This document shows positions 14,824-29,541 of a stretch of DNA of 29,559 bases, piece after piece. Made by a program: the position numbers and the translations under genes. Source of the DNA: a virus. The stretch covers positions 1-29,559 of IMG/VR virus record IMGVR_UViG_3300044960_000513. One strand, written 5' to 3'. Every line of letters starts with the position of its first letter. Position 1 is the first letter of the stretch. A model generated the notes under the pieces. It saw only the letters and a program-made list of their open reading frames with translations. It did not search any database and was not told the DNA's origin.

Positions 14824-14827
14824 CGGC

Positions 14828-16012
14828 TCAGTACCTCGTGCCCAGGTCAAGCTCGGTTACGTCGGCGATGCTGACGCCGGCCTTCTTCCGCGCCTGCGTC
14901 GCGTGGCTGTTCATCGTGCGGCTCCGGCGGCCTTTCAGGTCACCGCGATTGACCACCATCGCCAGGAACTTCCAGCTGAGGCCGGTAAGCAGATCGGGCT
15001 GCTCTTCAGGGACGGGCCTGCTGGTCTTGGTTTTGTGCTCGCGCAGCAGCATCACCAGGTTCTTGGCGATGGCTGCCTTCAGCTCCCCCGGATAGAGATC
15101 GAGCAGGCGGTATGTCCACTCGCGCCAGGTCAGGCCGGGCGGCTTTTCGATCTTCCCGTAGCCGTAGAGTTCGGTATTCGCGTAGCGGCCCGCCGTGGCC
15201 GCCCCGTGCACGCGCGCGATCATCTTGTGCCAAAGGTCAGGCCAACACTGCGCGTAAATCCAGAGGCCGCTCAAAGGCTCTTCGCCGTAAGGCGGGCAGA
15301 CGCGCTGGTCGCTCAGCGGCATCCCGGCTTTCTGCATCAGGTCGTAGGCGCGGTTGTAGTCCCAGCCGAAGCGTTTCGGGGCGACCCACACGTCGAACGT
15401 CGTCCAATCGTAAATCGGGCTGACCGGGTAGCTGTAGCCTTCGCGCGGGTTGCCGATCCAGTTGTCGCGCAGCTTCATGGCCACGCTGCGATAGCGTCGC
15501 AGCGATTCATCGGCGCGGATGCCGCGAATGTCGGCCACGGTGCCGTGTTCCTTGCCGTAGACCAGGTGGGCCAGCTCGGGGATGCCCATGCCCCAATGGA
15601 AGCCGGGCAGTTCCGTGATTGCCCCTTCCGGCATTGGGCGCACCCAGAGGTGTTTCTCCGCCGGGTTCCAGCAGTGCCAGTAGGGCTGTTTGCGGCTGCA
15701 AGCGTTCCTGTGGCGCACGGGGATGCAGAGCCACTTCAGGCGCACGTCCGGGCGCTGGGCTACGCGCGCGACGTATTCGATGGTTTCCGGGTGAATCGCT
15801 TCTTCGTCCCAAAAGTACACTTCGAGCGGCGTGCGGCCCAGTTCACGCGCGACCTGCAAAGTCAGGTTGAGGCAGACGGTCGAATCCTTGCCGCCGCTGA
15901 AGCTGACCACGACGGTGTCGAACCGCTCGTAGCACTCGCGGATGCGGCGCAGCGCCGCCGCGTAAACGTCTTCCTCGACCAATTGCTTCTTGTAGATTCG
16001 CGTCTTGGCCAC
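14828..16012 (-). CDS. PAPS-reductase-like PP-loop protein, IbrA-like
   Basis: 394 residues, GTG at 16012 with GGGAGG about 8 bases upstream. The PP-loop ATP-binding motif FDTVVVSFSGGKDSTVCLNL is at residues 31-50 with the core SGGKDS at 39-44, shared with PAPS/APS reductases, DndC and tRNA thiolation enzymes. Further motifs are YFWDEEAIHPETIEYV, IRGIRADESLRR and SPIYDWTTFDVW, all usual in this phage and plasmid subfamily. Several cysteines (CIPVRHRNAC, then CSRKQPYWHC region) might hold a metal or sulfur. It sits between a cupin and the IbrB-like gene, in one transcription unit. A host-type sulfate assimilation role is unlikely in a phage; sulfur or nucleotide chemistry on nucleic acid is an inference. 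Confidence 0.88.
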   Translation of the reverse strand: MAKTRIYKKQLVEEDVYAAALRRIRECYERFDTVVVSFSGGKDSTVCLNLTLQVARELGRTPLEVYFWDEEAIHPETIEYVARVAQRPDVRLKWLCIPVRHRNACSRKQPYWHCWNPAEKHLWVRPMPEGAITELPGFHWGMGIPELAHLVYGKEHGTVADIRGIRADESLRRYRSVAMKLRDNWIGNPREGYSYPVSPIYDWTTFDVWVAPKRFGWDYNRAYDLMQKAGMPLSDQRVCPPYGEEPLSGLWIYAQCWPDLWHKMIARVHGAATAGRYANTELYGYGKIEKPPGLTWREWTYRLLDLYPGELKAAIAKNLVMLLREHKTKTSRPVPEEQPDLLTGLSWKFLAMVVNRGDLKGRRSRTMNSHATQARKKAGVSIADVTELDLGTRY

Positions 16013-16037: not shown

Positions 16038-16739
16038 CTACCTGGTGCGGATTTCTTCGATCTCCGATGCGCTCACGCCGTTGACGATGGTGCGGTTGAT
16101 CATCGGGTGCTTCTCGTCGGTCGGTCCGAAGTCGCTGTCTGGGTGATAGGCCAGCACGCGCATGTCTTCGCCGTAAGGCGTGCGGAAACTGTGCAGCCCG
16201 CCCGTGTGAATGCAGAAGATCATGCCGGGCACCAGATCAATCGTGCCGTCGGGCGTGATGCACTGGCCGCGCCCGGAAAGAATCATCCCGATGCGGTCGC
16301 TCGGATGCGTGTGCTGCGTCTGGTCAATTCCGGCAGGGAAGTAGAGCAGGTTGAGGCACGGATCGCCCAGGCGCACGGGCGGAATCAGCAGGCTGTCGGT
16401 GCAGCCGTCAATGTACTTCAGCCGCCCCGTATGCTCGGCAGGCCCGCCGATGTGGAAGAAGCCGCGCCAGTTCTCGCGCGTCACTACAATGCCTCTGCCG
16501 CAGCCGATGATGCGGAAAGCGCCGGGCACGCTGAAGTACATGCCCGGATGCAGGTGAAAAACGCGGCCGTCCTTGAGCAGAATCGGCTGGCCTTCGTGCA
16601 CGTAGCCGAAGTGCGTGCCGCCTTCGTCTTCCACTACCAGCGCCTGGTCGGGAACAAACGCGCTCAGATAGCTGGGAAACTGCCGATCTAGGTCGGCGAT
16701 CTTTCCGTGCTGCCAGCTGAAGTGGCTAAAACTTCTCAT
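16038..16739 (-). CDS. Cupin-fold protein in the phage ParB/PAPS-reductase block
   Basis: 233 residues, ATG at 16739 with GGAGG upstream; overlaps the preceding ParB-like gene by 14 bases. The C-terminal half has the cupin pattern: QTQHTHPSDRIGMILSGRGQ (motif 1 with two His) followed by GMIFCIHTGGLHSFRTP (motif 2 with His), which would hold one metal ion. The N-terminal half (VHEGQPILLKDGRVFHLHPG) looks like a second, degenerate cupin, making it a bicupin. A sugar- or small-molecule-binding or oxidising role is typical of cupins, but the substrate cannot be told. Its fixed position between ParB and the PAPS-reductase-like protein suggests a shared pathway. Confidence 0.82.
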   Translation of the reverse strand: MRSFSHFSWQHGKIADLDRQFPSYLSAFVPDQALVVEDEGGTHFGYVHEGQPILLKDGRVFHLHPGMYFSVPGAFRIIGCGRGIVVTRENWRGFFHIGGPAEHTGRLKYIDGCTDSLLIPPVRLGDPCLNLLYFPAGIDQTQHTHPSDRIGMILSGRGQCITPDGTIDLVPGMIFCIHTGGLHSFRTPYGEDMRVLAYHPDSDFGPTDEKHPMINRTIVNGVSASEIEEIRTR

Positions 16740-17412
16740 CGTGTTCCTCCAAGTAGAGTTCGCAGATGTGGAACAACGCGTCGCCGCGCCGCTTGAATCG
16801 TTCCCGCTGCTTGGCCAGCTGTATGGCCGCGTTCACCACGTTGCGCTGCTCGAACGAAAGCACCTCACTGAACGTCACCAGCGGATTCCCATCGCCCTGC
16901 CTTCCATCACCAGGCGCACCGTCAACTTGGTCGGCCTCGAAAGACCCTTCGTCCTCGCCGGCCTCAGCGCCTGCGATCTTTTCGAGCGCGGCTTCGTCCA
17001 GGTCGTCGGCGATGCGCTTCAGGTCGTCCTCGGTGAAGCCCGCGTGCCCGATCAACTGTACGTCCAGGCCGCGCAGTTCCTTGATCTCCTGAGCCAGCAG
17101 GCCGATGTCCCAATCGCTGTCGCGGTTCGTGCGGTTGTCAGCCAGCCGCAGCGCCTTCACCTTCTCCGGCGCAAGATTCCCCGCGACCACCACAGGCACC
17201 TGCTTCGCTTCCAGCAGCTTCGCCGCTTCCAGCCGTCCGTGGCCGATGATGACCACGTACTCCTTGTCCACCACGATGGGCTGCTGCCAGCCGAATGCGG
17301 CGATGGAGTCCGCAATCTTGCGGATCGAGTCCTCGCTGCGCCTGCGCGGGTTGCGCCAGTAGGGCTTCAGCTTTTCGATCCCGATCCATTGCACCTTCAC
17401 CGGACACCCCAT
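16726..17412 (-). CDS. ParB-like nuclease-domain protein, first gene of the phage block
   Basis: 228 residues from ATG at 17412; the frame upstream has no other good start before a stop. The N-terminal ParB/Srx fold shows the sequence IGIEKLKPYWRNPRRRSEDS, then IAAFGWQQPIVVDKEYVVII and GHGRLEAAKLL, then ALRLADNRTNRDSDWD. This subgroup is common in phages next to terminases or DNA methyltransferases. The middle is acidic (GAEAGEDEGSFEADQVDG) and the C-terminus is a separate helical segment (LAKQRERFKRRGDALFHICE). No methyltransferase domain is fused. Role may be in DNA binding or modification; the family includes CTP-binding ParB and nuclease-like members. Confidence 0.85.
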   Translation of the reverse strand: MGCPVKVQWIGIEKLKPYWRNPRRRSEDSIRKIADSIAAFGWQQPIVVDKEYVVIIGHGRLEAAKLLEAKQVPVVVAGNLAPEKVKALRLADNRTNRDSDWDIGLLAQEIKELRGLDVQLIGHAGFTEDDLKRIADDLDEAALEKIAGAEAGEDEGSFEADQVDGAPGDGRQGDGNPLVTFSEVLSFEQRNVVNAAIQLAKQRERFKRRGDALFHICELYLEEHDEKF

Positions 17413-17756
17413 TTCGCTTTCTGCCGGGGTCTCCGCACGCCCCGAAAGTGCTTGAAACCCGCATCAGGATTGGTCAAACCGCGCATTTCGCTGCTCGCTC
17501 CAAGCGAAACGAAATGACAAAATTCTCCGCCTTACGCTGGCGTGACGCCGCGCCCGCCGTCACCCGCGAACTCATCCTTCCGAAAGGACCCGCTGCCCTT
17601 CACGCTTGAGCATTCTTTGCCTTTCAAAGCGCCAGCGAAGGAGAGAAGGTAATCCTCTAGGTGTACCTAATGCAATTGTCTTGCTAAAGTGAACATCTTT
17701 CAGTGCCTTCGCATCAGGGGTTAAGGCATACTTCTGGGTGCACAAGGAGAGACGCG
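17413..17756. promoter_or_regulatory. Intergenic boundary between phage block and defence region
   Basis: 344 bases with no convincing gene between divergent genes. Leftward, a possible promoter for the phage block is TTGCAT (17675-17670), 18 bases, TACCTT (17651-17646), about 230 bases before the ParB-like start. A GC-rich inverted repeat GTGACG/CGTCAC lies at 17542-17547 and 17558-17563. Copy B of the two-part repeat is at 17654-17683. No strong rightward promoter is visible, but a clear ribosome binding site (AAGGAG) precedes the plus-strand gene at 17757. Base composition changes here from G+C-rich phage sequence to a more A+T-rich style. Confidence 0.4.
17654..17683. repeat. Two-part repeat, copy B
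   Basis: CCTCTAGGTGT (17654-17664), eight bases, CAATTGTCTTG (17673-17683). Same two 11-mers, order and orientation as copy A at 11791-11816, where the gap is four bases. A palindrome TAGGT-GT-ACCTA (17658-17669) overlaps it. The two copies bracket the ParB-cupin-PAPS-terminase block. Confidence 0.7.
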
Positions 17757-18734
17757 ATGAGTGCTCAAGCTATCCAAGCCGTAGGCGAGTGGCTCGCAAA
17801 GGCAGAAAACGCCGATGCTCAATGGCTATTGGGAGATGCTCTCCGTATCCGTATGCAGCACGTAAACTATTTGGAAAATCCAGCAATCCAGGTGATAGCC
17901 AGAGGGAGAGGTGGCCCGCTGGCATCGGTCATAAAAGCAGTTCGAGGCCTGGCCAAAAACCCGGATGACTTGCGCGGAAAGCTGACTCAAGAACTCAATC
18001 CCAAGGCCGCCGACTTCGATAACAGAATAGAGGATTTTTTGGCAGAGCTTGTATCGGTCATCTACCTAGCGAAGTGTGGGTTTAAGGAGTTCGAGTTCCT
18101 ATTGGCCCGCGATTCAGCCATGCCAGACCTGCGGGCAATCGACAAGGATAACGTCGCGTACTTTGTGGAGGTCAAGAATCTGCGCGAACCCAACTCACCG
18201 ACCACGGCAGCTTTCAGCATATGGCATCGCAAACAAATCGAGGAGCCTGAAAGGTTCCGCTTCACTGCGTCAATAGACTTCCGCTCACAGATCGAACCTG
18301 ACCTTGACCAGGAACAGGTCAAGGCCGTGAAGGAACTCGTGGATTCACTACCAGATAGGAAGCGGCCTTCCGAATTCAAAGTGACTATCCCCGGCGGGCT
18401 GGAGATCCAGATTAAGGTCGAAGATGGGGAACCCGTGATGCTCTCCTATGGGACGGGAGGGGCTTTGGATGATGTCAGGGAAAAAAGGGCCAAAACGTTC
18501 TTAGTTAAGGTGCTCGACCAAACCTCAAAGGGTCTGCGCCAGCTTTATGCTTCTCACCTAGACGGTGACGCAAGACGGCTGCTTCTATTGCGATGGAGAG
18601 TGCCGAGTGATACTTGGCTGGTTGCCGACGAGATGCGCAACGCAGTCCGAGAATCGCTGAAGAACTTCCTTGCGCCTTACTTTGCAAACCTCGACGTACA
18701 CATTCTAAACAATACCGACCAGCTGGAGACTTGA
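17757..18734 (+). CDS. Restriction-endonuclease-like protein, PD-(D/E)XK candidate
   Basis: 325 residues from ATG at 17757 (AAGGAG 7 bases upstream; the longer TTG/ATG-less extension has no such site). Residues 90-140 fit the PD-(D/E)XK core: Glu in FLAELVSVIYLAKCGF (Glu about 97), then PDL (Asp 124), then YFVEVKNLRE (Glu 138, Lys 140), ahead of a helical region. The remainder (KVTIPGGLEIQIKVEDGEPV and LLLLRWRVPSDTW) is not recognised. It stands alone on the plus strand, convergent with the CDGSH gene, and is more A+T-rich than the phage genes. It might be a stand-alone nuclease, a restriction subunit of a split system, or a repair enzyme. No partner methyltransferase is adjacent on this strand. 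Confidence 0.72.
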   Translation: MSAQAIQAVGEWLAKAENADAQWLLGDALRIRMQHVNYLENPAIQVIARGRGGPLASVIKAVRGLAKNPDDLRGKLTQELNPKAADFDNRIEDFLAELVSVIYLAKCGFKEFEFLLARDSAMPDLRAIDKDNVAYFVEVKNLREPNSPTTAAFSIWHRKQIEEPERFRFTASIDFRSQIEPDLDQEQVKAVKELVDSLPDRKRPSEFKVTIPGGLEIQIKVEDGEPVMLSYGTGGALDDVREKRAKTFLVKVLDQTSKGLRQLYASHLDGDARRLLLLRWRVPSDTWLVADEMRNAVRESLKNFLAPYFANLDVHILNNTDQLET

Positions 18735-18773: not shown

Positions 18774-18792
18774 TCAGGGAGTTTCTCCCTGA
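18774..18792. terminator. Hairpin between convergent genes
   Basis: TCAGGGAG (18774-18781), TTT loop, CTCCCTGA (18785-18792): a perfect 8-base-pair stem that includes the stop codon of the leftward CDGSH gene and lies 39 bases after the rightward gene. It could act as a bidirectional terminator, though neither strand shows a U-run. Confidence 0.45.
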
Positions 18793-19028
18793 GGTCCAGG
18801 TACAGATTCCGATCTAGGTGCTACGTCATCGGCCTGGAAGCCGATCTTGCCGTGGGTGCCATCGCAAAAAGGTTTGTTGGCGCTGTGCCCGCACCGGCAC
18901 AGCGAAAACGCCGTCTTGCCCGCCAAGTCAAACGCCTTCCCGTCCGCGTCCACCACTTTGATCTCCGCACCATCCGTCGCTTCCATTCGGTACGGCCCAT
19001 TCTTCTTCGCAGTTATCGTCACCGGCAT
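18774..19028 (-). CDS. CDGSH iron-sulfur domain protein
   Basis: 84 residues from ATG at 19028, chosen because AGGAGG lies 7 bases upstream and the family N-terminus (MPVTITAKKNGPYRMEATDG) starts there; the longer frame to 19202 runs into the next gene. The signature C-x-C-x2-S-x3-P-x-C-D-G-x-H is complete: Cys44, Cys46, Cys55, His59 (SLCRCGHSANKPFCDGTH), which binds a [2Fe-2S] cluster. Bacterial members are small cytosolic redox or cluster-transfer proteins. The gene is not phage-like and not obviously linked to the defence genes, so it may be host chromosome or a passenger. Confidence 0.92.
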   Translation of the reverse strand: MPVTITAKKNGPYRMEATDGAEIKVVDADGKAFDLAGKTAFSLCRCGHSANKPFCDGTHGKIGFQADDVAPRSESVPGPQGETP

Positions 19029-19134
19029 CGAATCGTCCTCCTGTGGTCTCTTGAGCGCGCCAACAGAATAACTCATGGCCCCGAGTTGGTCACCTTGTTG
19101 ACATACGCCCTCGGGTGTAACGAGAATGGCCGGG

Positions 19135-19776
19135 CTAGAAGTTGAGGGTTCGAAGTTCCTCCAGGATGCGGTGGGGCGAGACCGGTCTCGCTCCGATCCC
19201 AATCAGGCTACCGTTCTCGGGGCAGTCGAAAGTCAGGACCGGTTTTTTCCAACTGCTGAGCTTCCGACAAAGAGACTCCGTGGTGCTGCCGGGAGCGGCG
19301 TAGGCCACGAAGATTACGTCGGCGAGAGTGGCGACGAACTCGTTGCGTTTCTGGGCCAGGTCAGCCGTGGCGCGGCGCTTCTTCTTTTCGAAGGAGGAAA
19401 GCAGTAGCAGGCGTCCCTGCTCAATCGGCCTGCGCCAGGAAGCAGGGATGCGCATACCTTCCAGGCTTCGGGCCGGGCAGATGATGAGGGGTTGCGTCCC
19501 CTTGAGCAGCACGTTCAAGCATTCTTTCTCGACAGGGGAGTGAAAGCCGCCGATTACCGTGACCCCAGCGTCCCTAAGCGCGTGCGCGAGGTCGTGGGTG
19601 CGGATAATAAGCGTGCCGGGGCATTTCTTCGAGCAGAAAAGCGCACACTTCTTTGTGTTGGCGATTCCAAGATTGCCCACCGCTCGGAGGTTCTTGGCAG
19701 AGTACCACGTGAGGCCCCGCTCGAAGTCTGCGGGCAAATGACCTTTCGGGCCAACTTGAACCTGGAGTTGTGTCAA
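19135..19776 (-). CDS. DprA/Smf-like SLOG-fold protein, third gene of defence operon
   Basis: 213 residues. The start is TTG at 19776 overlapping the methyltransferase stop (TTGA), and no ATG or GTG occurs before the conserved region. The Rossmann fold is shown by the sequence KCALFCSKKCPGTLIIRTHD, then DAGVTVIGGFHSPVEKECLN (residues 70-88), LLKGTQPLIICPARSLEGMR, KRNEFVATLADVIFVAYAAP (143-162) and a final strand KKPVLTFDCPENGSLIGIG. This is the DprA/SLOG layout, in which a Gly-rich loop and an R-N-E-type loop bind nucleotide or DNA. Typical DprA is longer and has a DprA winged-helix domain, which is missing here. SLOG proteins occur in many defence systems as nucleotide-signal sensors or processors. 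Confidence 0.75.
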   Translation of the reverse strand: MTQLQVQVGPKGHLPADFERGLTWYSAKNLRAVGNLGIANTKKCALFCSKKCPGTLIIRTHDLAHALRDAGVTVIGGFHSPVEKECLNVLLKGTQPLIICPARSLEGMRIPASWRRPIEQGRLLLLSSFEKKKRRATADLAQKRNEFVATLADVIFVAYAAPGSTTESLCRKLSSWKKPVLTFDCPENGSLIGIGARPVSPHRILEELRTLNF

Positions 19777-22700
19777 TCCTCGGCCTCTTCCAACTCGGCT
19801 CCGGACCGAAACTTAATGTCGTAGCTTATTATGAAGTCCATTTCTTCAGCGGTGAGTTGGTAGTGATCTGCCAGGAATTGGTCGATCCGGTCCATGATCG
19901 GCTTGGAGAACCTTGGGTAGAATTGGTCATACTCAACCGAGCCCGTGGCCTCGTACTTGGCCTTCAGGCGGCGTGCGTGCTTCTTCAGGTCCGCCATCAA
20001 TTCTCGTCCCAGGCCGACCAGTGCCTTCTTAGACGATTCCGATTTGAGCGGGGAACAGGGGAAGCTTTCGATACATAGCTTTCCTGCCTTAAACCCATCA
20101 AAGAAGACTTGCCAATAGAAATAGAAGGCAGAACTGTTCAGCAGAGCTACGAACGGCTCAATCGGAGTCCTGAATCGGTACTCTTTGTAATCCTCAGATT
20201 TCTTAAGTCCGTCTCTGTCACTGCGGAAATATGGAACGAAATCTACGCACTTTATGTAGTAGTGGGCGATGCGATGCACGTAGAGAGCCTCGCCCTCGCC
20301 TTTTGCAATCTGCATCGCGAGGGGCCGATGAGCAAAGAGTTTCTCCAATAAACGGCTTTCGATGGATTCACTGATCTTCGGGAATCCGAAAGCGAGGTAT
20401 TTGGGAGTCGCATTACAGTATTCGACTGCGGCAAACACGAAATCTCTGGCTTCCGAGAAAAAGCGGTAGAGCCTGGTCGTGTATTGCCGGGACGCCGTAC
20501 CAGATGTGTGAAGCAAGATGGACACGTTTTGTTTCACCCCATCGAACAGCTGGCCGGGATTCGAGTCACTCTCATAGCTTGACAGCCACGACGTGCCTTG
20601 TTCCCTTAGAATCTCTTGCATTGGTGTCATTCTTTCGGTGCAAACAAGGCTCATTGGAACAATCAAGCCGCAGCGATTGCCCTGCCTGAGCAGCCGAAGT
20701 GATCTCTCAACGAAAAACGCCCATAGGTTGTTGCATTCGAGGGTGCGATATCCCCTGACCCCATATTCGTCACGGACTTTGTAGAACTCAACCCACGGTG
20801 GATTGCCTACAATCACGTTGAACCCACCCGAATTCATGATTCCGTAGAACTCAATAAACCAATGAAATGGTCGGTGAGAATTCAACCACTTTTGGTAGGA
20901 GGGGCGGTCATCCGGTTTGACACCATATTCACCGGCTAAATTGCGGTTGAGTTCGTTCTCCAGCGTGCGCAGCCGGTGGAGCAACTCTTCCTTCGCCGTT
21001 GCAAACTCGTTCGACTCCATTCTTTGGTCGGACTGCATTTCACGGAATAGGCCAAACAGCCGGTCAATCTCCTGGGCCTTTTCCTCGATCTTCTCCATAG
21101 TGCCTTCGAAATCGAGCTTACTAGAGACAGCGCGCTTCACTTCGTCATACGAGGCATAGCCCACCAGCGTGTTTCCTGCACGGATGTTGAAGTCAATGTC
21201 AGGGAGCGGCTCAATCTGGTCGAGGCGCTCGATCTGGGCCACAAGCTTCAGGAAGAGCCGCAGCTTACAAATTTCTGTGGCCTCCTCCATGATGTCCACG
21301 CCGAAGACGTTATTGACGATGATTGCCTTGTAGATGAAATACTTGCGGTTCGGATGCGCGGCAACCCGTTCCAACTCCTTCTTAAAGTCCGCGAACTTCT
21401 CTGGGCGGTGCTTCTGGCCGGAGCGCTCCAGTTCCTCCAGAAAGATTTCCATGCGGTCGAGGCACGCCTCGTAGAGGGATTCCAAGATGTTCAGGGCCGC
21501 AAAGAGAAAGGCCCCCGAACCGCAAGCAGGGTCGAGCACGGACACGTTCTTGATGGCCTTGTAGAACGCGCGGAGCAATTCCGGACCTTCGCAGGTTTCG
21601 ATCACGTCCTGGGCGAACTGGCGGATGTCGAGGTTATAGGTGATGAGGTCGTTGATCGAGCGAATTTCGCCCGCCGCCAGCTTGCTTCGAACCTCTTCGT
21701 ACCGCTTGCGGCGCGCGACAACCTCTCGCCAGATTTCTGTGGGCAGGGCGTATTCCTCCGGGGCAGCCTTGTTCCACTGAGTGCGCTTGGAGACATCGCT
21801 GAGACCAGCGGCGATCTCCGGAGGCAGTTCCAAGCGGACGCCTTTTTTGACGGCATCGTAGATGTAGCGGTCCGGATCAGCTTGAAGCAGACGCCATATT
21901 GGGTTCGGGCCCTCAAACGCAATCCTGCACTCCTTCCGTGCCTGGTCGAACAGATAGGGGATGACCGTGTTCTGGCTGATGTAGCCGGTGATGTCTTCCT
22001 TGCTGTAGTACGCCCCCATCTGCTTCTGGTTGATGTACTTCTCGAAGATGTAACCCAGCACGTCCGGGTTGATTTCGTCGTCTTTCTTGAGCGGCCTCTC
22101 GTCCAGGTGCCACGTGTACTGCTCGAAGAAGGCAAAGAGCTTTTCAAAGGCGCCGTCGCCGATCTGAATGGCGTCGCCGTACAGTTCCTCGATTTGGTGC
22201 CGGAGGAACAAGCCGCCGTTCAGGTAGGGCACCTTCCCGAGCAGCTTGTTCATTACGGCGGACCGCTCGCCTTCCTTCTTGGCGAAGCCCTCGAAAAACA
22301 GCGGGCAAAGGAAGTCTCTGTAGAAGCGGTCTTTGCCGCGCTTCTTGCTTTCGGCGAGCCTATCCCGAAGGTAGTTTGGGCTATCGCCGAGGAACCCCTT
22401 CTTCTGAATGAAGTAGATGAACATCAGGCGATTGAGCATCACCGAGACGTACCACCGCTGCATGTCGTCGTCGGGGATGCCCTTCAGGAACTTCAGGAAG
22501 GCCGCGTGTTCAGATTTGAAGCGGTCATAGAAGCGCTTGGTGACCCTCTCCACATCGAAGGCAGCGCGGACGCGACCGGCGACCTCGGGGAGAGTAAGCC
22601 CCGCTTCCTCGTCAATGCTGACACTCAGGGCTTGCAGTTTCTGAATCAGTGCATCGCCAGGCTGGTGGCGGTAGAAAGTGTGCTCGCGGCAAGCGACCGG

Positions 22701-23030
22701 CTTGCCCGGCTCCCTCTTCAGCCATTGCCACGTCTGCGTCGTCTTGCCTGCATCTACGAAGACGATGAGGTGCTCGTGCACCAGCTTTGTGGCCTGGCGG
22801 TCGATCTTGCGGCGCGTTGGGTAGTCGGGGATGCGGCCGTCGGCTCCGGGCTCGCAGATGAACACTGCAAACCCGCGCTTGTGGGCGACCGCGCCCAGCC
22901 GATAGGAACCGCCATCCACTGTGAGATCGTGGGTCGCGGAATGGCGCTCCCAGCCGAGATCCTCAACGAAGAGGTTCTTCAGGTCGAAGTCTTTGAGGCG
23001 CTGGCGCGCTCGGGCTGAGTCAAGCGGCAT
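19773..23030 (-). CDS. Large N6-adenine DNA methyltransferase (Eco57I/type IIG-like)
   Basis: 1085 residues, ATG at 23030, 3 bases after the helicase stop. SAM motif I is VLDPACGSGAFLFAAL with Asp500-Pro-Ala-Cys-Gly504; the catalytic motif IV NPPW is at residues 743-746 within FNVIVGNPPWVEFY, so the target is adenine N6. Residues 1-110 (with AVAHKRGFAVFICEP and LVHEHLIVFVDAGKT) resemble a nuclease-like N-terminal fold, but I cannot see a complete PD-(D/E)XK set. Residues about 150-480 are a large helical part. The C-terminal ~280 residues after the catalytic core look like a target-recognition domain (TaqI-C-like). Size matches type IIG and BREX PglX-class enzymes. In the operon it follows a SNF2 helicase, implying a modification-plus-defence system. 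Confidence 0.9.
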   Translation of the reverse strand: MPLDSARARQRLKDFDLKNLFVEDLGWERHSATHDLTVDGGSYRLGAVAHKRGFAVFICEPGADGRIPDYPTRRKIDRQATKLVHEHLIVFVDAGKTTQTWQWLKREPGKPVACREHTFYRHQPGDALIQKLQALSVSIDEEAGLTLPEVAGRVRAAFDVERVTKRFYDRFKSEHAAFLKFLKGIPDDDMQRWYVSVMLNRLMFIYFIQKKGFLGDSPNYLRDRLAESKKRGKDRFYRDFLCPLFFEGFAKKEGERSAVMNKLLGKVPYLNGGLFLRHQIEELYGDAIQIGDGAFEKLFAFFEQYTWHLDERPLKKDDEINPDVLGYIFEKYINQKQMGAYYSKEDITGYISQNTVIPYLFDQARKECRIAFEGPNPIWRLLQADPDRYIYDAVKKGVRLELPPEIAAGLSDVSKRTQWNKAAPEEYALPTEIWREVVARRKRYEEVRSKLAAGEIRSINDLITYNLDIRQFAQDVIETCEGPELLRAFYKAIKNVSVLDPACGSGAFLFAALNILESLYEACLDRMEIFLEELERSGQKHRPEKFADFKKELERVAAHPNRKYFIYKAIIVNNVFGVDIMEEATEICKLRLFLKLVAQIERLDQIEPLPDIDFNIRAGNTLVGYASYDEVKRAVSSKLDFEGTMEKIEEKAQEIDRLFGLFREMQSDQRMESNEFATAKEELLHRLRTLENELNRNLAGEYGVKPDDRPSYQKWLNSHRPFHWFIEFYGIMNSGGFNVIVGNPPWVEFYKVRDEYGVRGYRTLECNNLWAFFVERSLRLLRQGNRCGLIVPMSLVCTERMTPMQEILREQGTSWLSSYESDSNPGQLFDGVKQNVSILLHTSGTASRQYTTRLYRFFSEARDFVFAAVEYCNATPKYLAFGFPKISESIESRLLEKLFAHRPLAMQIAKGEGEALYVHRIAHYYIKCVDFVPYFRSDRDGLKKSEDYKEYRFRTPIEPFVALLNSSAFYFYWQVFFDGFKAGKLCIESFPCSPLKSESSKKALVGLGRELMADLKKHARRLKAKYEATGSVEYDQFYPRFSKPIMDRIDQFLADHYQLTAEEMDFIISYDIKFRSGAELEEAED

Positions 23031-23033
23031 GGC

Positions 23034-26000
23034 CTACCTTTTCTCCTCCTTTGAGAATAGGCCCATCGAGCAGATGATCCTCGGTTCTTGCACCTGCTCG
23101 GATTCGTCAATCACGCACAGGCGGCCCTCTTCCCGCAAAGCCAGAACGAGTTCGGCCAAACCTTGATCTGAAATGCCGCTGCGCAGCTGGCGATTCAAGG
23201 TGTCCACGGCGGACTGCCTGAGCGGGTAGCGGTAGATTTCCTCGATAGCTTTGTTCAGCTCAGGCGTGTCGAAGAGCGTGCCTTTGATCTGCTCGGCGTA
23301 TCGCTTCAGGCGCTCGTAGGTGCGGAACCGCGCCCCAGACGGCCGACCCAACTGCCCGCCGATGGACTTCTCCTCTTTCACGATCCACTCGACGCCCTTG
23401 TGCACCAGCTCATGGTGCTTTTCGTGCCTGGGCATAGCCGGGGTGCTTGGCGAACACTCGGCGGCCTTGAGGATCGCAAACTGCGATTCGGTGACGCTGT
23501 TCCCGTCCTTGTCGATCCAGGCGAGGGCGTCGTTGCCTTCACCGGTGCGAAGATAAATCAGCACTCCCTCGGGCTCTTTCTCCTTCGGTGTAAATGCGCG
23601 TGTTGCGTAGGTCACCGGCGGCATCGCGGGGATGACCTTTTCGAGTTCAGGGTCTTGCGTAATCGCATTTTTCCAAATCTGATAAGCGTAGGAAGCCAAA
23701 TCCACCTCGCCGTCCACATCGCCGTCAAGAATGCCTGCCTTCTCGTGGTACAGGTCGAGGACAGCGCGGTCATTCCGGTCGTCCTCAAAGAACGCTTCAT
23801 CTGCCCCGACCACTTCTGCGTTTTCCTGAAGTCGCTGGCGGACCCGCGACCTGAGGCGAATGATGCGCTCGACGCCGTCAGCGGGAAGGAACGAGTGGCA
23901 GTAGATTTTCTCGGAGTGCTGACCGATTCGGTCCACACGCCCCGCCCGCTGAATCAACCGGATGATGGCCCAGGGCAGATCGTAATTGACCACAACACAG
24001 CAATCTTGCAGGTTCTGTCCCTCGCTGAGCACGTCGGTTGCAACGAGCACGCGAAGTTCATCTTCCGGCTTCACTTGATCGCGCTTGTTATTGCTGACGG
24101 GGCTGAATCGCCAGGCAAGTCGCGTGGGATCGGCTGATTCGCCGGTGACTCCTGCCAGGCGGGAAACACGGCGCTTCTGCAGTTGATCTTCCAGGTAGCG
24201 CACAGTGTCCGCGAATTGCGTAAAGACCAGGACTTTGTCGTTCGGGTGCTTCTTCGTGATGAGGTCGAAGAGGGCACTCAGTTTGGCGTCTTTCTCGGGG
24301 TTCCATTCCCCACACTTGTGAAGTACGTTCAGCAAAGCAGCTGAGTCGGCACGCAAGTCCTTTGTCAGCGAGGGAACAAACAGCGCAGGGCGAAGCCACT
24401 TGAAGCGGCGCTTTAACTGAGAGGCGTACTTCGCATATACCTCGGCGGCGCGGGCCTTGAACGCATCCTCGGTGCGCAAAGAGACCGCGGATTCTTCAGG
24501 GCCTTCCCCTTCGTTCTCATCGTCGAACATTTCCGAAGTGATCGCATCTTCGTCGTAAATCCGGGAGTCCAGCAACGCGGCGTCCTGTGTGCCCACAGGA
24601 ACCGGCAGTCCTTGCTCGATTGCGTGCAGGTAGACATAGTTTCGCAGGATGTGGCGTTCGACTGACTGGATGAACGCGCTGCCGCTGCTTTCCAACCGCT
24701 TGAAAAGTCCCGTTCGGCAGTAGCCCAGCAGGCGCTTGCCGGCTCGCGACAAGTCTTGGATTACTTTGGCCTCAGTCTGAGTGGGCGGTTCGTGAGGCGC
24801 TGCCGCGATGTAGTTCCCAAGCCCATACCGGGGGAGGGCCAGATTGTTGATTGTGTTCACCACATCGTCGTCGTAGAGCCGGGCGTATTGGTCTGAGGGG
24901 TCTTTCTCGTTGATTGTGAACCTGACTGTCTTGGGGACGCGCGACGGGAAATACGAACGGGTTCCGTCCTCGAAGACCAAGTACTTGCGCCCATTTTCAG
25001 GGTCCGCCAGCGCGTAGTTGTCCTGGATGAAAGTTCGCGTTCGACGAACCAGGTACAGACGCATTAACTCGCGCCAGTCATCGGCGTGGGGGCTCTTCTC
25101 AAAAGCGGCCAGCGACCTCACTGGACACTGGTGACGGCGGATGAACTCGGTCTCACCCAAATCCGTGAGCAATCGCTCCGGGCGAATCCCGATGTCCTTC
25201 TCCTCGGGGATGAAGAGGCGCAGTTGGTTGGAGAGGTCGAGGTACGTTTTGTTGTAGGGTGTCGCGGAAAGGAGAATGCACCTGCTTTCGTTCTGGTTGA
25301 TGTACTCCTGAATGGCCCGGTATCGCTTGCCCTCCCGGTTTCGCAAGTTCTGGCTTTCGTCAATCAACACGAGCCTGTACCGCCTCATGTCAGGCAACTC
25401 TTTCAGTACTTGACTGAGCGACAGAACCTTCGCTCGAAGCCGGTACTGCTGGCGGTAATCCTCCCACATGGGCACCAGGTTCTTTGGGCAGAGGATCAGC
25501 GTTTCTAGACCGTGGTCGTCTTCAAAGATTCGCGCGAGTGCCGTGGCCATTAGGGTTTTCCCCAGCCCTACCACATCGCCGATGAGCACTCCGCCGCGCT
25601 TGTTCAGGTGATGGGCCGCAATTTTGACGGCAGCGGTTTGGAATTCAAACAGCTTGTGGCCGAAGTCGCGGGGAATCGAAAAGCTCAGCAGGCCCTCGCG
25701 CGCGTCTTGGGACAAGTGATAGGCCATCTTGACGTAGATGTGATAGGGCGGGATAAGCTCCTCGCGCGCCCAGCTTTCTTCGATGACCTGTACAAGTTCG
25801 TTGGAGATGTCGAGGCACCAGCGGTCGTTCCAGCGATCCTCGAACCACTTCGCAAGTTTCAGACACGCATCATGGTCCTGAACGTCCACATTCAGTTCGC
25901 CCTGCTTGGAAAGGCCAGCCATTGTGAGGTTGCTGCTGCCAAGAAAACTGGTCGCTGGGTTCACCGGGTCTGGGCGGAAGAGCATGTAGAGCTTGGCGTG

Positions 26001-26414
26001 AAGCGGGTGCCTCAAGAACAGCTTAACGATTACCTTCTTGGCTTTGATCTGGGCAGCCAGGCGGCGAAGGCCAGCCTCGTCCTCGTTCGTGGGGATTCCA
26101 ACCGCCAACTGGTCACGGAACTCGCGGGCGAGTCTTTCCTTGAGGCGAAGAGCCGTCTGGTTGTCGATGCTTTCGTCGGTCTTTATCAGGCTCAGGGCAA
26201 GCCGCAGCTCCTCCTCCGGCAGCCGCTGCATACCGACAAGTAACCGACAACAATTGCCCTCGCCTCCCGACCACTTTTCAATATACCGGTCGATCTCCTT
26301 CCAGCCGCGCAGGTTGAAATAGCCGACGCAGAAGTCCGCGCGGTTCGAGACCTGCAACGTGTCTTGGAGAGCTGGGAGAAGCTGTTGCTCGATATTGTCG
26401 AAGATGCGTGGCAT
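23034..26414 (-). CDS. PLD-phosphodiesterase plus SNF2 helicase fusion protein
   Basis: 1126 residues, ATG at 26414. An N-terminal phospholipase-D-like domain has H-x-K (His139-Ala-Lys141, in RHPLHAKLYMLF) and the following FLGSSNLT (157-164), the single HKD motif of nuclease-type PLD domains. The SNF2 helicase core follows: Walker A GDVVGLGKTLMA (279-290), DEAH-box variant DESQ (352-355), motif III LLSATPYNKTYLDLSNQL, and motif VI QRAGRVDRIGQ (822-832). The C-terminal ~290 residues are unassigned and helical. It opens the operon, with methyltransferase and SLOG protein downstream. Such helicases translocate on duplex DNA and couple to a nuclease, here the PLD domain, in defence systems including DISARM-type ones. 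The particular system is not identified. Confidence 0.92.
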   Translation of the reverse strand: MPRIFDNIEQQLLPALQDTLQVSNRADFCVGYFNLRGWKEIDRYIEKWSGGEGNCCRLLVGMQRLPEEELRLALSLIKTDESIDNQTALRLKERLAREFRDQLAVGIPTNEDEAGLRRLAAQIKAKKVIVKLFLRHPLHAKLYMLFRPDPVNPATSFLGSSNLTMAGLSKQGELNVDVQDHDACLKLAKWFEDRWNDRWCLDISNELVQVIEESWAREELIPPYHIYVKMAYHLSQDAREGLLSFSIPRDFGHKLFEFQTAAVKIAAHHLNKRGGVLIGDVVGLGKTLMATALARIFEDDHGLETLILCPKNLVPMWEDYRQQYRLRAKVLSLSQVLKELPDMRRYRLVLIDESQNLRNREGKRYRAIQEYINQNESRCILLSATPYNKTYLDLSNQLRLFIPEEKDIGIRPERLLTDLGETEFIRRHQCPVRSLAAFEKSPHADDWRELMRLYLVRRTRTFIQDNYALADPENGRKYLVFEDGTRSYFPSRVPKTVRFTINEKDPSDQYARLYDDDVVNTINNLALPRYGLGNYIAAAPHEPPTQTEAKVIQDLSRAGKRLLGYCRTGLFKRLESSGSAFIQSVERHILRNYVYLHAIEQGLPVPVGTQDAALLDSRIYDEDAITSEMFDDENEGEGPEESAVSLRTEDAFKARAAEVYAKYASQLKRRFKWLRPALFVPSLTKDLRADSAALLNVLHKCGEWNPEKDAKLSALFDLITKKHPNDKVLVFTQFADTVRYLEDQLQKRRVSRLAGVTGESADPTRLAWRFSPVSNNKRDQVKPEDELRVLVATDVLSEGQNLQDCCVVVNYDLPWAIIRLIQRAGRVDRIGQHSEKIYCHSFLPADGVERIIRLRSRVRQRLQENAEVVGADEAFFEDDRNDRAVLDLYHEKAGILDGDVDGEVDLASYAYQIWKNAITQDPELEKVIPAMPPVTYATRAFTPKEKEPEGVLIYLRTGEGNDALAWIDKDGNSVTESQFAILKAAECSPSTPAMPRHEKHHELVHKGVEWIVKEEKSIGGQLGRPSGARFRTYERLKRYAEQIKGTLFDTPELNKAIEEIYRYPLRQSAVDTLNRQLRSGISDQGLAELVLALREEGRLCVIDESEQVQEPRIICSMGLFSKEEKR

Positions 26415-26547
26415 GGTTCGCGGGAAGGATTGTAATCACCCAGTCAACAAAAGGACATAGGGATGTGACTCCGACCCGCATTGTGCAACACTGGAAACAG
26501 GCTAGCTTTTGAGTCAGGTATAATCTTGCTGCTTTGGAGCCTCGTTG
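26415..26547. promoter_or_regulatory. Divergent control region between helicase operon and small plus-strand gene
   Basis: 133 bases separating divergent starts. For the helicase (leftward) a -10 like TACAAT sits at 26434-26429, 14 bases before its ATG, but the matching -35 (TGTCCT, 17 bases away) is poor. For the small gene (rightward) TATAAT sits at 26519-26524, 23 bases before its ATG, again without a clear -35. Both are by-eye calls. No long inverted repeat is seen. Confidence 0.4.
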
Positions 26548-26796
26548 ATGGCCAAGTACTGCACGGGTGACTACATCAAGGCTGAGTTCAAGGATGACGC
26601 TACAGGCGAGAGCGAGTGGATGTGGGTGCGAGTTGACTCTTGCGATGACACGGACCGGATTGTGTTTGGACGCCTCGACAGCCTGCCCGTGATCCAGGCG
26701 GGAAAGCTCAAGCTGCATTCTGAAATCGCCGTCAGCTATGCCAACGTGCGAGAACACCGACGATCTGTGGAGTTCATGAAGCCGCCGGGAGAATAG
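26548..26796 (+). CDS. Small conserved-looking protein, unknown function (weakly DUF2314-like)
   Basis: 82 residues from ATG at 26548, the codon after a TTG; no strong ribosome binding site, but a TATAAT lies 23 bases upstream. Sequence MAKYCTGDYIKAEFKDDATG, then GESEWMWVRVDSCDDTDRIV and FGRLDSLPV, then LKLHSEIAVSYANVREHRRS. The pattern of GDxIKAEF, a Trp-Met-Trp strand and a small-beta-domain end resembles short DUF2314-like proteins. It lies between the two defence gene sets and its 3' end overlaps the Vsr-like gene on the opposite strand by 23 bases, so the two messages could form a duplex. Role unknown; possible host gene or antidote. Confidence 0.7.
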   Translation: MAKYCTGDYIKAEFKDDATGESEWMWVRVDSCDDTDRIVFGRLDSLPVIQAGKLKLHSEIAVSYANVREHRRSVEFMKPPGE

Positions 26797-27187
26797 CCTT
26801 CTGGATGCGGGCTGCCGTTTTCTTGTCCTGTATGCGGCACTCCCAAATCCGTAACACAGCCCACCCACCGCGTCGAAGCTCGACATCAATCCGGCGATCA
26901 CGCTTGCGATTGCTAACGATCTTTTTCTTCCAGTACCGAACGTTGCTCTTGGGGGTCTTGTAGCACCTGGGGCAGCCGTGCCAGAAACAGCCATCAACGA
27001 ACAGGGCGACTTTTTGCCGTGGCCAGCAAAAATCCGGCGTTCCACTCATAGGAATCTGCCTACGCCAACCGCGAAAACCGTGTTCTCGCAGCAGCCGCAC
27101 CATTTTCTTCTCGGTGCTCAGGTTCCCGCGAGACCTCACAGCAGCCATGAACCGGGAACGTGTTGCCCTGTCAACTACGTCGACCAC
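26774..27187 (-). CDS. vsr: Very short patch repair (Vsr)-type endonuclease
   Basis: 137 residues from GTG at 27187: GGGAG lies 8 bases upstream and the resulting start (V)VDVVDRATRSRFMA matches the family N-terminus; the longer TTG at 27202 has no binding site. Visible motifs are SGTPDFCWP with Asp52, and LFVDGCFWHGCPRC with His70, plus KKKIVSNRKRDRRIDVEL and the closing WAVLRIWEC. The spacing Asp to His of 18 residues equals that of E. coli Vsr (Asp51, His69). Vsr nicks DNA 5' of T in T:G mismatches made by deamination of 5-methylcytosine. It is usually linked to a cytosine-5 methyltransferase, which is not in this window. It ends the GHKL operon. Confidence 0.92.
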   Translation of the reverse strand: MVDVVDRATRSRFMAAVRSRGNLSTEKKMVRLLREHGFRGWRRQIPMSGTPDFCWPRQKVALFVDGCFWHGCPRCYKTPKSNVRYWKKKIVSNRKRDRRIDVELRRGGWAVLRIWECRIQDKKTAARIQKAILPAAS

Positions 27188-27220
27188 GTGCTTATCTCCC
27201 AACGCGAGTGTTTCAGATTT

Positions 27221-28162
27221 TCAGGGTACGGCCTTCATGAAGTATGGAAAGTAGCGGTGAAACTGCGCGTACTGGCCAAGTTGCGACTCTGTCTTCTCCC
27301 TGTTTTCGTCGATCAGGTAGCCCAAAGTCCGTCGGAGGGTACTTCCTGCGCCACGATGGCAAGGTAGACGGCGTTGCAGATGCAGACGTTCCTTGGTGCT
27401 TAATGCAGGTACGTCAATCCTCTTCGGAGGTCCCCACTCCAGATTAGCCAAATCCCACCGCCGAAAAGCCCTCTTTGTCTCAGTCTCCCTCGTCCGCTGA
27501 ATAACCACACCCGTCAGCGTGAACATCCCACTTACGTCGGCGTAGTAGAAGGACGAGACAGGTTGAAACATCAAAGGCATGGCTCCCGGCAAAGATTTCT
27601 GGGCGGCGACCTGGAGCATCCCCTGAAGAAGCCCAGCGAACTTCTCGAACTCTCGCGGTGGATCAGTCGATGGATCAGGCATCACAGCTTCGAAAACCTT
27701 CCGAAAATCCTCAGCTTTGCCTTCCCGCATGAAGTCTCCGGACTCGGCACGCAAGGTGACCTTAACCATGCTACCCACAGCGACCTTGCTAAGTAAAACC
27801 ATGAAGTCCTCGAAATGCTGATATTCGAGCCGGGTGTAATCCAGCCAAAAAATACTCTTTTGGTCTCTTGCCTCGTATCCGGCCAGGAAGGATGTGAAGT
27901 TCGCATTTTCAAGCCGCAGCGCGCGACAGGGCCGATGAAAATCTTGCCTCTTCAGCGTCTCTTGATTCTCCTCGATTGACACCATTCTGATATCCGGGCA
28001 AAATTCGTACAACAGTCGAAAATCCTCAAGATACGGCCCGCCAAGTCCATAGTAGGTGTACTCTCTAAGCTTTCCGAAGTATTCGAGCCGTTTGATCGCC
28101 TCGATTAGCATGAGGCGATCTATCGCCTTATTCAGCCTGAGATGGTAAGGAGGATGCCTCAT
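27221..28162 (-). CDS. Unrecognised protein with methyltransferase-type Rossmann fold, paired with GHKL ATPase
   Basis: 313 residues from ATG at 28162, overlapping the ATPase stop (ATGA) and preceded by GGAGG; the frame to 28195 would lie inside that gene. Residues 35-48 (YTYYGLGGPYLEDF) give a Gly-rich nucleotide/SAM loop, residues 58-70 (IRMVSIEENQETL) the acidic end of strand 2, and residues 104-111 (IFWLDYTR) a motif-IV-like strand with Asp. The layout matches O-methyltransferase-like Rossmann proteins, though the substrate is unknown and the C-terminal ~130 residues (AFRRWDLANLEWGPPKR and basic end) are unique. No target-recognition domain is seen. Position between a GHKL ATPase and a Vsr endonuclease suggests a defence or repair role. 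Confidence 0.68.
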   Translation of the reverse strand: MRHPPYHLRLNKAIDRLMLIEAIKRLEYFGKLREYTYYGLGGPYLEDFRLLYEFCPDIRMVSIEENQETLKRQDFHRPCRALRLENANFTSFLAGYEARDQKSIFWLDYTRLEYQHFEDFMVLLSKVAVGSMVKVTLRAESGDFMREGKAEDFRKVFEAVMPDPSTDPPREFEKFAGLLQGMLQVAAQKSLPGAMPLMFQPVSSFYYADVSGMFTLTGVVIQRTRETETKRAFRRWDLANLEWGPPKRIDVPALSTKERLHLQRRLPCHRGAGSTLRRTLGYLIDENREKTESQLGQYAQFHRYFPYFMKAVP

Positions 28163-29541
28163 TTCCTGGCCTCCTTCAGTATCAGGTCGAAGCACTCTTC
28201 CCCAACGACCGACGGTTCGGTGTCAGCATCGTCGAATAAGTACTCCGCAACGCTTCGAACCTCCTCGACATCTTTGACAAATGAAATCCGTCGCTTTTTG
28301 GTTTCCAACGCCTTCGGCAACGGAAGAGGTGGAACATACTGGCTGCCAGGTGGAACTGTTTTCCTTGTGGGGTTTAGCTTGAGGCGCTTGACTTCGGCTT
28401 TGATCTCTTCAAAAGAGAGTGGCTCTCCCGCCTGAATGTGTTTCTTGGACTCATCGGCGCGTCCCTTCCACCTGTTCGTGTAGTTCGTGAAGATCCGCAT
28501 ACCTTCGCGCATTTTGTTCTTGACCTGGAGATATAAAGAGGAGGAGGCGTCAATACCTCGCTTGGTCGTTGTTGTGGGAAGCTTGGACGCTTCGTCAGCC
28601 TTGAACTCCACTATCCCAGAAATTGCAATGAATTGAGTATGGTAACGAGGAATGCCCGCCTCGCCCCAGCCGGTCAGTTCACTCCGGTCACAATACAGAA
28701 CGGCCCGGTCGTTGCAAAGAATCGTCCATCCAGCTTCCAATGACGAATACTTCTTCTCTTCTTGCTCCCTGGCAAGCTCAGCTTCCGACGGGATGGGTCT
28801 TGTGAAACCAACGGCCAAGAACACTTCAACGCCTTCAATCTTCGTCTTGAAAATGAACGGCTGGATAGCGGGCCTGCCGTCCCGCATCTTGTGAAAGATG
28901 AGTCGTGTGGGCCGGGGTTTGACGACCGTTCCGTTTATTGTGACGACGAAACCCTTGTCGATAATGAATGCGTAGTGAGCAGAGACCATTCGCTCAAGCT
29001 CCTGCTTGAAAGCCTTAGCATCTGGCCCGAAGCGTTTTTGAATGCCAACATATAGGTCTCCTATGACAATGGTGGTCCCGTCCTGTTGCATCGTCTTTTT
29101 CGCTGCTTTGACGGGTATGTCCCAATTCTGCTCGTCAGTGAGCCATTCCGGCTTGATCTCCACTTCGTATCTATCTTGCGAATTCTGAGTTGAAATCAGG
29201 CAGTGCTTGCCCATCTTAAATATGGCCCGCTTCATGCCAATGCCGTAGACCCCCACAGTCCCAGGCGCATCTTCCGGGCGGTCATCTGCGCGCCCCATCC
29301 GGAAAGCATAGTCATGCAAGCTCCACGGAATACCGCCGCAGTTATCAGAAATCGAAAAAGAATCCTTATCGAACTTAATGTGTGCCCAAAAACCGGAGTA
29401 CGGCTTTTTCGTTGCGTTACGGGCACCGGTGCGAAGAATGCCATCCACGCAGTTGTCGAGCAGGTCCAGAATCGATTCCTCTAGCTTGATGTCCCGTGTA
29501 AGCATCGAGACAAAAAACGATTTCACGGGGGACGCGTTCAC
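28159..29541 (-). CDS. GHKL (MutL/MORC-like) ATPase, start possibly beyond window
   Basis: 460 residues from GTG at 29541, but no clear ribosome binding site and the frame is open to the edge, so the true start may lie outside. GHKL ATP-binding motifs: N box EESILDLLDNCVDG (residues 21-34, Glu22, Asn30), G1 box ISDNCGGIP (64-72) and G2 box GVYGIGMKRA (97-106). The second half (residues 200-460), with PAIQPFIFKTKIEGVEVFLA and a Lys/Arg-rich C-terminal region, is not the MutL endonuclease domain. Homologues of this kind occur in restriction-modification loci with Vsr or Z1 proteins and are related to MORC ATPases. ATP-driven dimer clamp on DNA is likely. It is first in an operon with the methyltransferase-fold gene and vsr. 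Confidence 0.88.
   Translation of the reverse strand: MNASPVKSFFVSMLTRDIKLEESILDLLDNCVDGILRTGARNATKKPYSGFWAHIKFDKDSFSISDNCGGIPWSLHDYAFRMGRADDRPEDAPGTVGVYGIGMKRAIFKMGKHCLISTQNSQDRYEVEIKPEWLTDEQNWDIPVKAAKKTMQQDGTTIVIGDLYVGIQKRFGPDAKAFKQELERMVSAHYAFIIDKGFVVTINGTVVKPRPTRLIFHKMRDGRPAIQPFIFKTKIEGVEVFLAVGFTRPIPSEAELAREQEEKKYSSLEAGWTILCNDRAVLYCDRSELTGWGEAGIPRYHTQFIAISGIVEFKADEASKLPTTTTKRGIDASSSLYLQVKNKMREGMRIFTNYTNRWKGRADESKKHIQAGEPLSFEEIKAEVKRLKLNPTRKTVPPGSQYVPPLPLPKALETKKRRISFVKDVEEVRSVAEYLFDDADTEPSVVGEECFDLILKEARK

Follow-up and report, generated by a model that had tools for sequence, protein, structure and literature searches.

What kind of system is encoded by an operon that combines a PLD nuclease fused to a SNF2 helicase, a large N6-adenine methyltransferase and a short DprA-like protein of the SLOG superfamily? 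The question is raised by IMGVR_UViG_3300044960_000513, a virus record of IMG/VR. The whole record, 29,559 bases, was analysed and is called the window below. We find that the 3 genes constitute a widespread bacterial DNA-defence operon that apparently has no name. Judging from domains and conserved motifs, the PLD-SNF2 protein and the methyltransferase very probably form the two-subunit core of an ATP-dependent restriction-modification (RM) system. The complete statement, an RM pair with a third, DprA-like control protein, seems to us evenly poised.

A conserved three-gene operon

All 3 genes lie on the minus strand. The first encodes a putative restriction/translocase subunit, the PLD-SNF2 protein (23034-26414; 1126 residues, ATG start), with Pfam matches to PLDc_2, RE_NgoFVII, SNF2-rel_dom and Helicase_C. 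The second encodes the putative modification/specificity subunit, the methyltransferase (19773-23030; 1085 residues, ATG start; Pfam Eco57I and MmeI_Mtase), and the third the DprA-like protein, hereafter SLOG (19135-19776; 213 residues, TTG start; Pfam DNA_processg_A below the cut-off). Read on the minus strand, the first junction is TAG GCC ATG, a 3-base gap, while at the second, TTGA, the TTG start overlaps the TGA stop by 4 bases. A preliminary description made from the letters alone had proposed exactly this tight arrangement, and both the coordinates and the junctions agree with it. It had also assigned the 3 proteins as a PLD-SNF2 fusion, an N6-adenine methyltransferase and a SLOG protein, which is borne out by the domain matches and by recurrence of the operon in relatives.

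A species-level scan of a genome collection with a helicase alignment confirmed at least 579 relatives. For the gene neighbourhoods we used 80 genome loci chosen by similarity to the window helicase, together with 6 close viral and 6 plasmid loci. Helicase and methyltransferase occur together at nearly all complete loci, across phyla, the methyltransferase following the helicase, and across 90 loci the helicase, the methyltransferase and SLOG are the sole widely recurring genes. The operon is not a chance assembly, because the pair recurs in hundreds of genomes and SLOG lies nearby on the same strand at 24 of the 47 informative loci other than the window (23 of 47 lack it). These loci also contradict the possibility, left standing in the preliminary description, that SLOG never accompanies the other 2 genes in homologues. 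As that description supposed, the three-gene set apparently has no name: no family in PADLOC 2023 or NCBIfam 2026 names it, the literature covered being open-licence papers, and none of the 3 proteins reaches a curated NCBIfam cut-off.

On mobile elements, the helicase-methyltransferase pair is present on plasmids, without SLOG. Phage records contained no full-length relative of the helicase, scans of viral contigs with a single methyltransferase or a single SLOG sequence gave no relative, and a tblastn search with SLOG against 72,556 plasmids and 50,697 phages gave no match.

The motor nuclease and the methyltransferase

The PLD-SNF2 protein has an N-terminal PLD (HKD) nuclease domain with residues H139, K141, N162 and E173, and an SNF2-type SF2 motor with the Walker A lysine K286, DES at 352-354 and an arginine motif (R823/R826/R829). 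Of 82 helicases, 80-82 retain each of the 4 nuclease residues, K286, D352-E353 and the arginine motif. Taken over all catalytic residues, conservation is 78-82 of 82 in the translocases and 53-58 of 58 in the methyltransferases, if the common A/T/S and W/Y exchanges within the motifs are disregarded. H139 and K286, as well as the methyltransferase motifs DPACGSG and NPPW, had been singled out beforehand; all are present in the window proteins and conserved in relatives. The translocase is evenly conserved, with an identity to the window of 0.5-0.8 over most of its length (82 sequences) and no hypervariable stretch; even its lowest parts, residues 601-700 and the last 26 residues, are at 0.34-0.41. 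Its best PADLOC label is C3a139 "HKD+Snf2", at 162 bits. The helicase alignment has a single conserved HxK motif in the PLD domain, and the PLD sites would therefore be expected to come together in a dimer. In SauUSI, the nuclease domains hold the dimer together (PMC7913695), and a double-strand break by CglI requires 2 complexes (PMC5737866).

The methyltransferase consists of an N-terminal domain (1-120) of uncertain fold, a helical domain, the methyltransferase domain and a C-terminal variable region. DPACGSG lies at 500-506 and NPPW at 743-746, with D500, G504 and N743-P744-P745 kept in all 58 methyltransferases. Across these sequences the identity to the window is approximately 0.8 around the best-conserved motifs and falls to 0.14-0.27 at residues ~800-1050, between better-conserved flanks. 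We read this hypervariable C-terminal region as the target-recognition domain. In Type I, ISP and IIG enzymes the target-recognition domain is located at such a position. Since the variable region resides in the methyltransferase, and at this position, the partner nuclease would take its specificity from the methyltransferase. For a homologous pair on Synechocystis pSYSX, one paper on its methylome assigns no motif to the methyltransferase gene, and we claim no target motif.

By sequence the methyltransferase belongs to a Type IIG family, the PADLOC profile REase_MTase_IIG (PDLC03628) matching residues 3-1082 of 1085 (E 0, 1040.6 bits). A model of its N-terminal part (m16f7be7e289e; pLDDT 84.5 and approximately 93 for the first 100 residues) gave no good match in a fold search. 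Among the weak rows are restriction-endonuclease-like structures (9y1l, 1wdj and 3ot2), which suggests a possible degenerate nuclease fold, and DrdV (7lo5; residues 4-340, Z 4.9). Across the 58 homologues, residues 1-135 have no conserved (D/E)xK or D..(D/E)xK motif.

SLOG is a DprA-type Rossmann protein

On its AF2 model (pLDDT 92), SLOG is a member of the DprA superfamily, with the Rossmann SLOG fold and an RN motif. The closest structures are DprA (4ljk_B; VIA Z 22.2, rmsd 2.7 over 200 residues), followed by ShosA (8zva; Z 18.3), with LOG enzymes at Z ~12 and the SLOG domains of ThsA at Z ~11; in a sequence profile search of solved structures, DprA is the sole family matched. The protein is a Rossmann domain only: its model aligns over residues 3-213 with the Rossmann part of DprA, and the DprA winged-helix domain is absent, as noted in the preliminary description. 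The scores are below the curated DprA cut-offs (Pfam DNA_processg_A 25.8 versus 29.6; NCBIfam TIGR00732 28.5 versus 191), and PADLOC matches the protein to PsyrA at 49.5 bits.

The family signature is CS(K/R)(K/R)xPG..GFHSPxExxCLxxLLRG..AR..RN, and residues S49, G77, E83, R144 and N145 are the same in all 22 sequences compared. R144-N145 aligns on the RN motif of DprA, and position 50 or 51, at the site of the DprA GTRR loop, is basic in 22 of 24 sequences. Together, the RN motif and this basic residue make it plausible that SLOG binds single-stranded DNA.

SLOG is a recurrent but optional companion

A SLOG profile found the protein at 23 loci, plus a 24th (L012) where it lies 7.5 kb downstream of the methyltransferase. 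At every SLOG locus the gene is on the strand of the pair, and it is 3' of the methyltransferase except at L017, where it is 5' of the helicase. At 8 of 23 other loci, the reading frame of SLOG begins no later than the stop codon of the methyltransferase, as it does in the window. By record title, SLOG-bearing loci come from Desulfobacterales, Lentisphaerae, Alphaproteobacteria, Latescibacteria, Chloroflexota, Poribacteria, Acidobacteriota, Burkholderiales, Bacteroidota, Nitrospirae and Clostridiales.

Because the 80 genome loci had been picked by similarity to the window helicase, we took 2 less biased samples, counting SLOG above 140 bits. Among 297 Acidobacteriota genomes, 11 have the helicase, 8 have SLOG and 4 have both, where 0.3 would be expected (P 6.7e-5); among 301 Chloroflexota genomes, 30 have the helicase, 14 have SLOG and 9 have both, with 1.4 expected (P 4.1e-7), both P values being uncorrected for relatedness. 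Between roughly a third and a half of the copies of the pair have SLOG. It is missing from many pair-bearing genomes and is therefore recurrent yet optional as the third component of the operon.

The distances between SLOG sequences follow those between helicases (Mantel r 0.59, p 0.0002), and helicase and methyltransferase distances correlate as well (r 0.33, p 0.0002). On the helicase tree, SLOG presence needs at least 11 state changes, a number as low as this being reached in 2 of 300 shuffles (shuffle mean 16.3). From the tree, SLOG presence is lineage-linked, yet was gained or lost many times. We rejected the idea that SLOG is confined to this system, as several strong matches have no pair nearby. 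In an Acidobacteriota locus (L210), SLOG and a 114-aa open reading frame (ORF) are followed by an ORF of 2665 aa (L210:11048-19045).

A possible mechanism and its alternatives

The operon, its domains, the conservation of active sites and fold, the contrast in variability and the association between the genes are read from sequence; from these we infer methylation, cutting, complex formation, target asymmetry and a role for SLOG. The methyltransferase would read a short, probably asymmetric target via its hypervariable C-terminus and methylate adenine at the host's copies of that target. At an unmodified target it would recruit or license the PLD-SNF2 subunit. That subunit itself lacks a variable recognition region and would translocate on duplex DNA by means of its SNF2 motor. 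PLD sites paired across a dimer would then cut the DNA, as in SauUSI or CglI. SLOG would bind either the motor-nuclease or single-stranded DNA and restrain or gate cutting in an antitoxin- or licensing-like manner, so that cutting is limited to invading DNA. The model for this last step is RqlI, a DprA homologue that binds the helicase RqlH from the same operon and restrains its genotoxicity (PMC4670107). By this analogy SLOG may be a restrainer or gate of the system, a proposal in which our confidence falls slightly short of even. We are more tentative about the broader picture of a phylum-spanning RM family in which a DprA-like protein that binds single-stranded DNA licenses or restrains the motor nuclease.

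Several observations weigh against a controlling SLOG. Helicase-bearing genomes without SLOG make up 7 of 11 in Acidobacteriota and 21 of 30 in Chloroflexota, and about half of the window-like loci lack it too. With so many absences, SLOG could be an indispensable antitoxin only if the forms without it were tame by nature. There are also strong SLOG matches without the pair within the contig read (L208, L209, L211, L213 and L217). Finally, the toxicity of RqlH resides in a phosphoribosyltransferase (PRTase) domain, which is absent here.

The pair might instead be a complete RM system, with SLOG an interchangeable add-on defence module 3' of the methyltransferase that acts alone, for instance by abortive infection triggered by single-stranded DNA. 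The chief support for this is the range of other defence- or toxin-like genes found in the same slots, i.e., between methyltransferase and SLOG, between helicase and methyltransferase, or directly 3' of the methyltransferase. They include an AAA_21 ATPase with DUF4276 (PARIS/AbiL-like), DUF1016/YhcG, HNH with MTaX1, KilA-N, DUF3644, GmrSD, TIR, HepT and HipA-like with DUF3037, as well as VapC in cyanobacterial plasmids. Type I restriction operons are known to take up such genes. The absence of SLOG from many loci, its occasional presence without the pair and its repeated changes of state on the helicase tree point the same way. However, SLOG is embedded at 22 loci, nearly three times as many as the 8 of the next embedded family, it co-diverges with the helicase, and it has no recognisable effector domain. 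Moreover, it stands alongside other add-ons without replacing them (L009, L011, L069, L084 and L086). We consider an independent add-on rather unlikely.

A further proposal is that the nuclease is activated by a nucleotide signal which SLOG would either sense or produce, in keeping with the modification-plus-signal design considered in the preliminary description. The SLOG superfamily does cover Thoeris cyclic-ADP-ribose sensors and LOG phosphoribohydrolases, and both appear in the fold search, but at clearly lower similarity than DprA and ShosA. The profile search returned DprA only, the DprA-type RN motif is invariant, and the loci have no constant signal-making partner (TIR in 2 of 65 neighbours). 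The signal design is thus not favoured, and we regard it as improbable. It is more improbable still that the methyltransferase is a self-sufficient Type IIG enzyme beside a separate PLD-SNF2 and SLOG system by chance: the full-length Type IIG profile match and the weak DrdV row speak for it, but its N-terminus has no conserved D..(D/E)xK motif, this methyltransferase follows the helicase at nearly all complete loci across phyla, and the distances of the two correlate.

An RM pair with a DprA-like control protein, if correct, would show what keeps a powerful translocating nuclease safe, and would give such RM systems an off-switch on DNA processing, or a second trigger on it. The recurring pairing of a helicase with a DprA homologue would also become testable in a simple three-gene setting.

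Genomic surroundings

The left 17 kb of the window is a phage late operon (GC content ~62-66%) that includes a large terminase (phrog_15, 742 bits). The right 12 kb, with a GC content of 50-59%, carries the three-gene operon and more defence-like genes, and the record terminates within this cargo region. Directly upstream of the operon, a second minus-strand cluster (26774-29541) reaches the contig end. It encodes a Vsr nuclease (26774-27202; TIGR00632 above the cut-off) upstream of the PLD-SNF2 gene, a Methyltransf_35 protein (27221-28195; 218 bits) and a GHKL/HATPase_c_3 protein (28159-29541; phrog_20521, 560 bits), and resembles the GHKL-Vsr-methylase RM neighbourhoods of PMC2292703. Between the Vsr and PLD-SNF2 genes, on the opposite strand, an 83-aa ORF without family match (26545-26796, plus strand) may be a real small gene.

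Immediately 3' of the SLOG gene and on the same strand lies a gene for a CDGSH iron-sulphur protein (18774-19202, minus strand); its longest form overlaps the end of SLOG, and its true start may be further in. A 343-aa ORF on the strand opposite to the operon (17703-18734, plus strand) has an EVK motif (YFVEVKN) and is possibly a PD-(D/E)XK protein; it has no match in Pfam, PADLOC, NCBIfam or PHROG. Further left, a PAPS-reductase-like phage moron (14828-16012, minus strand; phrog_2302, 290 bits) is flanked by 2 ORFs (14272-14850 and 16726-17412) that to the eye resemble ParB.

At other loci, ATPase and DUF4276 pairs (PARIS/AbiL-like) lie immediately 3' of the methyltransferase (L005, L009, L029, L042, L046 and L054), a position that would suit guards of the restriction system. 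Two plasmids, Synechocystis pSYSX and one from Picosynechococcus (L002 and L004), have a small ORF and a VapC-family toxin between the helicase and methyltransferase genes; in both, DUF2513 follows.

Comparison with known systems

The core pair looks like a common RM type that present defence catalogues split or mislabel: the methyltransferase is labelled Type IIG, and the motor matches only models of other systems. The helicase is carried by approximately 10% of the sampled Chloroflexota and 4% of the sampled Acidobacteriota genomes. The PLD-SNF2 fusion, which the preliminary description could not match to a named system, has counterparts in the PLD-helicase fusions of SauUSI, PbeA and the Type-2 BR/Hma helicases (PMC7913695, PMC10853773 and PMC12839542).

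The DUF499-centred, BREX-related Type-2 BR/Hma systems likewise have an HKD/PLD domain fused to the N-terminus of a Swi2/Snf2 helicase, an adjacent large N6-adenine methyltransferase and a proposed RM-like action (PMC12839542). The window PLD-SNF2 protein, however, scores 66 bits to HmaA, and the commonest third gene here is a DprA-like SLOG. No DUF499 AAA+ ATPase is present in the window genes scanned, in the 90 homologous loci no ATPase of that size recurs next to the helicase, methyltransferase and SLOG, and the 25 commonest of the 41 neighbour families, which were listed, do not include DUF499. DUF3780 has no Pfam match in the window genes scanned and is not among the listed neighbour families.

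SauUSI, a Type IV enzyme, shares a PLD nuclease and an ATP-driven translocase in one chain, with a dimer that cuts both strands (PMC7913695). Unlike the operon described here, in which the variable region is in the partner methyltransferase, SauUSI has its own recognition domain and cuts methylated DNA. R.CglI is of the RE_NgoFVII-type PLD kind, and a PLD domain of this type was detected in the window PLD-SNF2 protein. The nuclease and ATPase of CglI are separate proteins, and we know of no SLOG partner for them. CglI is similar in combining an endonuclease (R.CglI) with a helicase-like ATPase (H.CglI) and in communication along DNA from an asymmetric site (PMC5737866).

DISARM also has an SNF2 helicase, a PLD protein and a methyltransferase, but here the PLD is fused to the helicase and the DrmA and DrmB (DUF1998) genes are missing from the window genes scanned, where only partial helicase cross-matches occur. 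One such partial match is that of the DrmD profile to the helicase (PADLOC 118 bits; NCBIfam 131 versus a cut-off of 610). With Type ISP and IIG enzymes the operon has in common an N6-adenine methyltransferase with a C-terminal target-recognition region and, for ISP, an ATP motor. Type ISP enzymes unite nuclease, motor, methyltransferase and target-recognition domain in a single chain, whereas the motor-nuclease and methyltransferase here are products of 2 separate genes and the nuclease is of the PLD and not of the Mrr/PD-(D/E)XK type.

For SLOG, the closest parallels are RqlHI, PsyrTA (SyrTA) and ShosTA, in which a DprA homologue is encoded with a helicase or PRTase protein and restrains its partner (PMC4670107 and PMC9122126); DprA homologues act as antitoxins in all 3 (PMC9122126). 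The partner here is a PLD-SNF2 nuclease, accompanied by a methyltransferase; none of the 3 operon proteins has a Pfam match to a PRTase domain. SLOG is also shorter than ShosA (213 versus 308 residues). As in RqlHI and PsyrTA, a DprA-like gene shares an operon with a helicase, and as here the regulator is optional among RqlH relatives, rqlH often occurring without rqlI (PMC4670107). If SLOG controls the nuclease, the operon would join the DprA-antitoxin theme of RqlHI, ShosTA and PsyrTA to true restriction-modification.

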